Below are positions 29,209-34,786 of a DNA stretch of 64,000 nt, in pieces. The stretch spans positions 310,001 to 374,000 of the forward strand of contig NZ_JBGUAX010000002.1 in assembly GCF_041821065.1 (NCBI RefSeq), read 5' to 3'. Position 1 is the first letter of the stretch. Each line of letters begins with the position of its first letter. This DNA comes from Egicoccus sp. AB-alg2. Its GTDB lineage: Bacteria > Actinomycetota > Nitriliruptoria > Nitriliruptorales > Nitriliruptoraceae. The notes below the pieces were generated by a model. That model saw only the letters and a program-made list of their open reading frames with translations. It was not told where the DNA came from and searched no databases. Made by a program: the position numbers and the translations under genes.

Positions 29209-29237
29209 TTGTCGGCCCCTGTCGGCACGCTTAGTGT
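29209..29237 (+). promoter_or_regulatory. Promoter of a small isolated transcript
   Basis: TTGTCG at 29209-29214 and TAGTGT at 29232-29237 are separated by exactly 17 bp. The -35 has four of six consensus bases; TAGnnT is a common actinobacterial -10. A start near 29244 would give a ~105-nt leader. Confidence 0.55.
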
Positions 29238-29244
29238 CCTGCCA

Positions 29245-29303
29245 CGTCGTTCGCGCCTTTCGGGCGCCCACGACGGCCCGCGGAGAAGTCGGATTCACCG
29301 CGG
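29245..29303 (+). ncRNA. Structured leader of the small transcript
   Basis: A two-part hairpin at 29245-29275 has outer CGTCG/CGACG and inner GCGCC/GGCGC pairs. A second possible stem pairs CCGCGG at 29278-29283 with CCGCGG at 29298-29303. Together they occupy about half of the predicted 5' leader. Structure inferred by eye. Confidence 0.4.
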
Positions 29304-29348
29304 ACAGACCGCGACGAGTCACCCACGACACCGGCGAAGGAGGGACCG

Positions 29349-29426
29349 ATGATGACCAAGCGAATCGACGCTGGTACCGGCGCCCTCGCCGGCCGTCCTG
29401 CCGTGCTCGCTCGCACCGGAGTGTAG
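29349..29426 (+). CDS. Small ORF, 25-residue peptide
   Basis: ATG ATG start, 25 codons, TAG at 29424. The Shine-Dalgarno GAAGGAGGG (29336-29344) is among the strongest in this window and is ideally spaced. The peptide is MMTKRIDAGTGALAGRP then AVLARTGV: no signal sequence, no Cys, no run of one amino acid, so it is not a classical amino-acid attenuator peptide. It is flanked by its own promoter and an intrinsic terminator, which argues for a genuine transcript. It may be a small protein or the coding part of a regulatory RNA. No family recognised. Confidence 0.55.
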   Translation: MMTKRIDAGTGALAGRPAVLARTGV

Positions 29427-29453
29427 GCACCACTCCCCTCGGAACCTCGAGCG

Positions 29454-29480
29454 AGCCGGCGGATCTCCCGCCGGCTTTTT
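29454..29480 (+). terminator. Intrinsic terminator with U-tract
   Basis: Stem AGCCGGCGG (29454-29462) pairs with CCGCCGGCT (29468-29476) around a five-base loop, followed by TTTT. A textbook Rho-independent terminator 27 bases after the 25-codon ORF. Confidence 0.9.
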
Positions 29481-29613
29481 CGTGTCCCGAATACCGGTTC
29501 CTCACCCGGTCCGGTGCGGTCCTCGACCTTCTCTAGCGTCGAGATCGACCCGCCGCCAAACGCGTCCTTCGCCCGAAGGCGCGACCGTCACACCGACCCC
29601 ACGAGGTCCTCCC

Positions 29614-29808
29614 ATGCACCCCGAACTGACCCATCTCGAAGCCCAGCTGCGCGTCCGTGACGACCTGAACGACTTCGCGGTCCGCAGACAGCATCCTCGA
29701 CGCCCACGCCCACCCTCTCGGGTGCGCGTCGCCGTGGCGTCCCAGCTGGTGCGCCTGGCGGCGCGCGTCGCCGACGAGCCCGCCCACGTCCTGGCGCGCC
29801 GCGTCTGA
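29614..29808 (+). CDS. Small basic protein of unknown function
   Basis: 64 aa from ATG 29614, with GAGG about 12 bases upstream. Composition is Arg-rich (HPRRPRPPSRVRVAV) with an amphipathic N-terminal helix (ELTHLEAQLRVRDDLNDFAV). No signal peptide or known domain. It has a possible -10 (TAGCGT near 29534) and is followed by a strong hairpin before convergent gltB. Real coding is plausible but unproven. The 133 bp between it and the upstream terminator hold no other gene. Confidence 0.5.
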   Translation: MHPELTHLEAQLRVRDDLNDFAVRRQHPRRPRPPSRVRVAVASQLVRLAARVADEPAHVLARRV

Positions 29809-29848: not shown

Positions 29849-29884
29849 CCGCCACCCGCGAGCACGTCAGCTCGCGGGTGGCGG
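29849..29884. terminator. Hairpin terminator between convergent genes
   Basis: Fourteen-base-pair stem (CCGCCACCCGCGAG and its complement) with an eight-base loop. It lies between the 64-residue ORF and the 3' end of gltB and can serve both strands. Confidence 0.8.
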
Positions 29885-29913
29885 CCGGGACCCGGCCGCG
29901 GCGGCGTCGTCGG

Positions 29914-34614
<4,701 letters not shown>

Positions 34615-34621
34615 GCTGGAA

Positions 34622-34748
34622 CTCCTGCTCGAGGTGCCGGGGCACCGGGACGGGCACGTGCTGCGACGCCGAGCAGGGCCACCGAGGTGGTCCAGGGATG
34701 CGGACGCGAAAAACGGCGCCCCGCCAGGTGTCGGGAGCGCCGTTGCTC
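34622..34748 (-). ncRNA. Candidate cis-regulatory leader RNA of gltB
   Basis: Predicted leader of about 135 nt. It holds, in order: a terminator hairpin (34744-34709), a short CCAC/GTGG hairpin with CTCG loop, a GGTGC/GCACC hairpin, and the SD. CCTGCTCG (minus strand 34677-34670) is exactly complementary to CGAGCAGG (34631-34624), and the second copy overlaps the SD GCAGGAG. This helix would hide the ribosome-binding site. The combination suggests control by transcription attenuation, translation, or both. No known riboswitch class recognised. Confidence 0.5.
34709..34744 (-). terminator. Intrinsic terminator inside the gltB leader
   Basis: On the minus strand AACGGCGC and CCCG pair with CGGG and GCGCCGTT (one bulged base), eight-base loop, followed by a run of five T (34713-34709). 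It points toward gltB and lies after the predicted promoter, so it would stop transcription before the gene unless prevented. Confidence 0.75.
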
Positions 34749-34756
34749 TGCCGGGG

Positions 34757-34786
34757 AGCGTAACGGGCGACTCGGCTGATTGTCCA
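34757..34786 (-). promoter_or_regulatory. Predicted gltB promoter
   Basis: Minus strand TGGACA (34786-34781, five of six to consensus) and TACGCT (34762-34757) are separated by 18 bp. Transcription would start near 34749, just before the terminator hairpin. Confidence 0.55.

Follow-up and report, generated by a model that had tools for sequence, protein, structure and literature searches.

A putative ribosome-controlled transcription attenuator preceding the gene of a small arginine-rich protein in one family of Actinobacteria

The segment 29209-29480 (+ strand) of the window, the 64-kb stretch of DNA analysed here from a high-GC actinobacterium (G000), probably subjects the gene at 29614-29808 to transcription attenuation controlled by the ribosome. 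To this reading, which is drawn from sequence and genome comparison, we give a probability of about 0.75. The anatomy is well supported by the same comparisons: the unit, the frame of its leader ORF, two RNA helices, the terminator and the downstream gene. That the leader switches, in which direction and in response to which signal, we infer. In silico, the segment combines a short ORF led by a Shine-Dalgarno (SD) sequence, an intrinsic terminator, an antiterminator exclusive with it, and a spacer before the gene in which no promoter is predicted, as in a uORF attenuator.

The unit, its downstream gene and their distribution

The predicted promoter (29209-29237, + strand) consists of a -35 element TTGTCG (29209-29214), a 17-nt spacer and a -10 element TAGTGT (29232-29237). 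This actinobacterial-type pattern, TTGNNN-17-TANNNT, outdoes shuffled sequences (0/300 as good), and a scan for E. coli-type sigma-70 promoters did not find it at the unit. The 5' leader (29244-29338, +) carries a hairpin, ACGTCG..CGACG, close to where transcription presumably starts (about 29244), and is followed by the SD sequence GGAGGG (29339-29344, +), read directly, and by the leader ORF, or uORF (29349-29426, +), of 25 codons (MMTKRIDAGTGALAGRPAVLARTGV), with an ATGATG start at 29349 and a TAG stop at 29424-29426. The intrinsic terminator (29453-29482, +) reads GAGCCGGCGG-ATCTC-CCGCCGGCTT then TTT, that is, a stem (29453-29462 / 29468-29477) and a T-run; one terminator-like site was found compared with 0.1 expected in shuffles, and GCCGGCGG-n-CCGCCGGC occurs once in 64 kb compared with 0.03 expected. 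The transcript of about 240 nt is predicted to be structured, its fold being better than those of 200 shuffled sequences (z = -4.1). No Rfam covariance model matched at gathering score anywhere in the 64-kb window. Direct reading confirmed all the elements that a preliminary description had placed here (promoter, leader, SD, 25-codon ORF and terminator), and the peptide indeed contains no amino-acid run and is not a signal peptide.

The preliminary description also took the unit for an orphan, unconnected to its neighbours. It had missed a 64-codon ORF on the same strand (29614-29808, +), 136 nt past the terminator stem, and a small-protein gene follows the unit in every relative whose contig permits checking. 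The 64-aa arginine-rich product (MHPELTHLEAQLRVRDDL...) has homologs in the family and a codon-like substitution pattern, with 47, 70 and 124 substitutions at codon positions 1, 2 and 3 among the congeners; it is about 70% identical in the three congeners. Its relatives are mostly 58-79 residues long and arginine-rich. Two main helices are predicted, with an RPRPPGR-like stretch between them, and the AlphaFold model is helical (pLDDT 85, pTM 0.37). The protein has no fold match in the PDB, belongs to no Pfam family (DUF1127 included) and no NCBIfam family, and has no match in a scan of named public genomes; searches of phages with the small protein and of plasmids with the leader DNA gave no match. 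The gene does not look like one for a biosynthetic enzyme or a transporter.

Both flanking genes lie on the - strand. By recognition of their sequences, we tentatively take the left one (29071-27833) to encode a secreted peptidase of M23 type and the right one (34614-29914) the large subunit of glutamate synthase. Where the 64-aa ORF and the glutamate-synthase gene converge, a 14-bp perfect inverted repeat lies between them (29849-29884, CCGCCACCCGCGAG-n8-CTCGCGGGTGGCGG), probably an end-of-transcript hairpin serving both genes. Antisense to the glutamate-synthase gene runs an open frame of 1633 codons (29878-34779, +), most likely a by-product of the high GC content.

A DNA search of 41 genomes gave clear matches limited to three congeners, at the same position. 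A profile of the small protein recovered more copies within the family, with an identical layout upstream of each, and the G004 locus was located via its glutamate-synthase neighbourhood. In all, the promoter-SD-ORF-terminator layout was found in 13 genomes from seven genera of one family; some genomes of the family do not have it. In 11 of the 13 genomes the SD-led ORF, the terminator and then a gene for a small basic protein are on one contig. G004 shares this layout, with a downstream protein that has diverged further. In G001 the two halves of the unit are on separate contigs (L027, L022), and linkage of leader and gene is presumed; both contigs end at the inverted repeat of the terminator, an assembly break at the hairpin. 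The unit is next to other genes in G005 and G017, which indicates that it is inherited as a leader together with its small-protein gene and not via the glutamate-synthase neighbourhood.

When 396 genomes of the phylum were searched with the profile, the only small-protein relatives found beyond the family were in G040, G072 and G150, without the leader. Distant relatives in other actinobacterial families (L114, L115, L062) have different upstream regions with no leader ORF or terminator; they make up a family of short arginine-rich proteins that is scattered and has no name. A second small-basic-protein copy in G017 (L116, G017:C211:5578-5739), also without the leader unit, is 3' of an apparent regulator fragment.

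The elements of the unit vary differently among the 13 loci. TTGTCG-17-TANNGT is common to all four congeners (G000 and the three others), and a promoter of the same type scores better than shuffles (p<0.05) at 11 of the 13 loci, those of G062 and G010 being no better than shuffles. The 5' leader differs in length and sequence among genomes. A GGAGG-type SD is present at 13/13 loci, and several of the terminators have short T-runs. The terminator stem with an SD-led short ORF upstream is confined to these loci; elsewhere in the class the terminator sequence occurs as inverted repeats without SD-led short ORFs, which were rejected as further units. Between terminator and gene, promoter prediction gave no signal above shuffles (0/12 loci). 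The G000 spacer contains a -10-like TAGCGT at about 29532-29540, which is not above chance as a promoter; a CTCTAGC stretch in G001 is similar to it, and none was seen in G002.

Frame and peptide of the leader ORF

The leader ORF is 24-37 codons long, and its stop codon lies 14-32 nt upstream of the terminator at 13/13 loci, whereas the first stop in either of the other frames falls there in 0/26 cases. The frame, whose conservation in relatives had been proposed as a check, is thus kept in the three congeners and in 13 genomes in all. The peptides, in contrast, share almost nothing across genera. In the 15 peptide codons that can be aligned among the four congeners (a short sample of low power), there are 21, 21 and 27 differences at positions 1, 2 and 3. 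Compared with the pattern in the downstream ORF, these counts suggest that the leader peptide is under no clear coding constraint and that the downstream protein is constrained.

These results bear on the proposal, made in the preliminary description, that the 25-codon ORF is a functional small protein or part of a dual-function RNA. A small protein, or a small RNA acting alone, with a terminator that merely ends its gene, would account for the strong SD, the promoter, the terminator and the structured transcript of about 240 nt. It would also account for the C-terminal motif R-x-x-V-x-A-R-x-G-V, which is retained within the genus; however, the retained codons coincide with the stop hairpin and the antiterminator described below, which they build. 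As the substitutions are moreover spread across codon positions, the peptides have almost nothing in common beyond the genus, and the unit precedes a like downstream gene even at the moved loci (G005 and G017), we consider this explanation unlikely.

No repeated or shared control codons were found in the first 12 codons across the 13 leader ORFs. Attenuation had earlier been dismissed for the lack of amino-acid runs, an argument that does not hold, since attenuators that sense impaired translation need none. Ten of the 13 peptides contain one Cys, and five of the 13 ORFs open with ATGATG.

Two helices in the leader RNA

The stop codon lies in a predicted hairpin (29418-29436, +), formed by GGAGTG (29418-29423), TAGGCAC and CACTCC (29431-29436). 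Its arms change between genera yet remain complementary: GGGACC/GGTCCC in G010, GGACGGG/CCCGTCC in G006, TGGACG/CGTCCA in G062 and GTCGGTCT/AGACCGAC in G017. A MAFFT alignment failed to bring the stop hairpins into register. In a first test, by folding energy against shuffles, the signal was weak at single loci, with a combined p of 0.0025 for one locus per genus. Arm-swapping tests came after this one: the mean score was 15.8 for the arms of the same locus and 10.8 for arms swapped between loci (0/4000 permutations; 1/4000 in the energy version). With one locus per genus, 2-30 of 5040 permutations did as well.

The second helix is a candidate antiterminator, in which the last third of the ORF pairs with the 5' arm of the terminator and the stop hairpin is nested inside. 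Its 5' strand (29397-29413, +; core GCTCGCTCG, 29405-29413) is within the ORF, and its 3' strand (29448-29462, +; core CGAGCGAGC, 29448-29456) comprises the linker and the terminator 5' arm. The core, GCTCGCTCG:CGAGCGAGC in G000, is CTCGTGC:GCACGAG in G010, CTCCCG:CGGGAG in G059 and CGCCGTCTC:GAGACGGCG in G004; in this last genome an altered terminator (GAGACGGCGG) is accompanied by a matching CGCCGTCTC in the ORF. Pairs from the same locus averaged -23.2 kcal/mol compared with -21.0 kcal/mol for permuted pairs (6/4000 and 67/20000). When each genus was represented by a single locus, p in the energy-based permutations had a median of 0.01-0.02 and a worst value of 0.15-0.2, in a small sample of seven genera and for helices that had both been noticed by eye or in folds prior to testing. 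Pairing of the terminator arm with windows further upstream gave no signal.

A stop codon in a hairpin ahead of a terminator is reminiscent of the trp leader, and the single Cys of most peptides would be in line with a trp/ilv-type attenuator that senses starvation for one amino acid through one charged tRNA. The classical trp topology (2:3, the 3' arm of the stop hairpin with the terminator) was rejected, as 3810/4000 permutations were at least as good. Since this pairing is absent, the opening 12 codons lack any repeated or shared control codon and the downstream gene is unlike those of biosynthesis, such an attenuator is very improbable.

It could also be that the same leader and uORF exert control mainly through Rho or through sequestration of the leader SD, the hairpin being only a final stop. 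There is a C-rich stretch 3' of the leader stop codon, and the SD region pairs somewhat better with the middle of its own ORF than with swapped ones (17/4000; one-per-genus median p 0.05); against this, a well-formed intrinsic terminator and a compensating antiterminator are found at all loci, and we regard control of this kind as improbable. The pairing of the SD region with mid-ORF is possibly an extra layer of control. We also considered, and rejected, a leader SD sequestered by the C-rich stretch past the stop, for which the pairing test gave no signal.

Proposed switch, related systems and significance

In the ribosome-controlled attenuator that we favour, RNA polymerase would start near 29244, and a ribosome loaded at the strong SD would trail it over the 25-codon ORF. 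On reaching the stop codon the ribosome would melt the stop-codon hairpin and cover or clear the last third of the ORF; the terminator 5' arm would then have no upstream partner, the terminator would form and transcription would end at about 29482. In the absence of initiation, or if the ribosome stalls in about the first 12 codons, 29397-29413 would pair with 29448-29462 before the terminator 3' arm is synthesized, with the stop hairpin nested within; polymerase would read through and the small basic protein would be made.

This direction was modelled at the 13 loci by folding the nascent transcript as far as the loop of the terminator, with the position of the ribosome masked. Mean pairing of the terminator arm was about 0.85 with the A site at least 14 codons upstream of the stop, about 0.5 once the A site was within 10 codons of it, and 0.38 at the stop itself. 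The modelled change from 0.85 to 0.38 is a shift and not an all-or-none switch; in G000 pairing of the arm remained at 0.85 even when the ribosome had reached the stop, so that the predicted relief is incomplete. According to this model, termination should be favoured when the ORF is translated to its end, and read-through when it is not translated or when the ribosome stalls early. Established uORF attenuators follow this logic, among them the M. tuberculosis ilvB1 and vmlR leaders described below. The signal, the least certain step, is most likely impaired translation generally (a shortage of ribosomes, or inhibitors of translation): the leader has no control codons and no shared arrest motif, which argues for translation capacity in general and not for one amino acid.

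We found no description of the unit in the literature, and we regard it as probably an undescribed uORF-dependent transcription attenuator with an unusual target. Its closest parallels are a Sinorhizobium DUF1127 leader and the streptococcal fthC motif. In Sinorhizobium meliloti, a translated uORF represses the DUF1127 gene, which encodes a small arginine-rich protein, by premature transcription termination, and repression is relieved by tetracycline or by removal of the uORF start (PMC12218461). That leader has no functional intrinsic terminator, probably depends on Rho and has C-rich codons at the uORF start (PMC12218461), whereas the unit described here has an intrinsic terminator and an antiterminator formed from the uORF end, and its protein is not DUF1127 by Pfam; the two are alike but not homologous. 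The Streptococcus fthC motif is a uORF candidate with three hairpins, of which the second often holds the uORF stop and the third is the terminator; it belongs to another phylum, with another sequence and target (5-formyltetrahydrofolate cyclo-ligase), and its mechanism is only proposed (PMC11109978).

Other leaders share parts of this organization. Bacillus subtilis vmlR, switched on by ribosome stalling on its uORF, likewise has an intermediate hairpin, an intrinsic terminator and an antiterminator formed from RNA of the uORF region, but differs in its target (an ABCF resistance factor), its separate anti-antiterminator, its SD-sequestering hairpin and its unrelated sequence (PMC9226507). 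Stalling in the uORF of whiB7/wblC of Actinobacteria induces the downstream gene (described in PMC13236596), which is a transcription factor; the likeness to the present unit is drawn from this description. In Mycobacterium tuberculosis ilvB1, a ribosome that has reached the uORF stop covers about 26 nt, which keeps the antiterminator from forming and lets the terminator form (PMC13236596). Both this leader and Corynebacterium ilvB (PMC10272879) sense branched-chain amino acids via control codons, of which there are none here.

What appeared to be an orphan micro-gene becomes a regulatory switch that can be tested, in an actinobacterial lineage that has been little studied. It gives a first clue to an arginine-rich small protein without known family, which is probably needed when translation falters. 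With a peptide that changes fast, a fixed frame and compensated RNA helices, the unit is a natural showcase of a leader ORF read for position and not for product. More tentatively, it may monitor translation capacity across the family. It would then be a uORF attenuator that has neither control codons nor an arrest motif and whose antiterminator encloses the stop hairpin; it would be dedicated to one arginine-rich translation-stress protein and would be an independent counterpart of the alphaproteobacterial DUF1127 leader. Should translation capacity be the signal, this would be a second, independent small arginine-rich protein controlled in this way.
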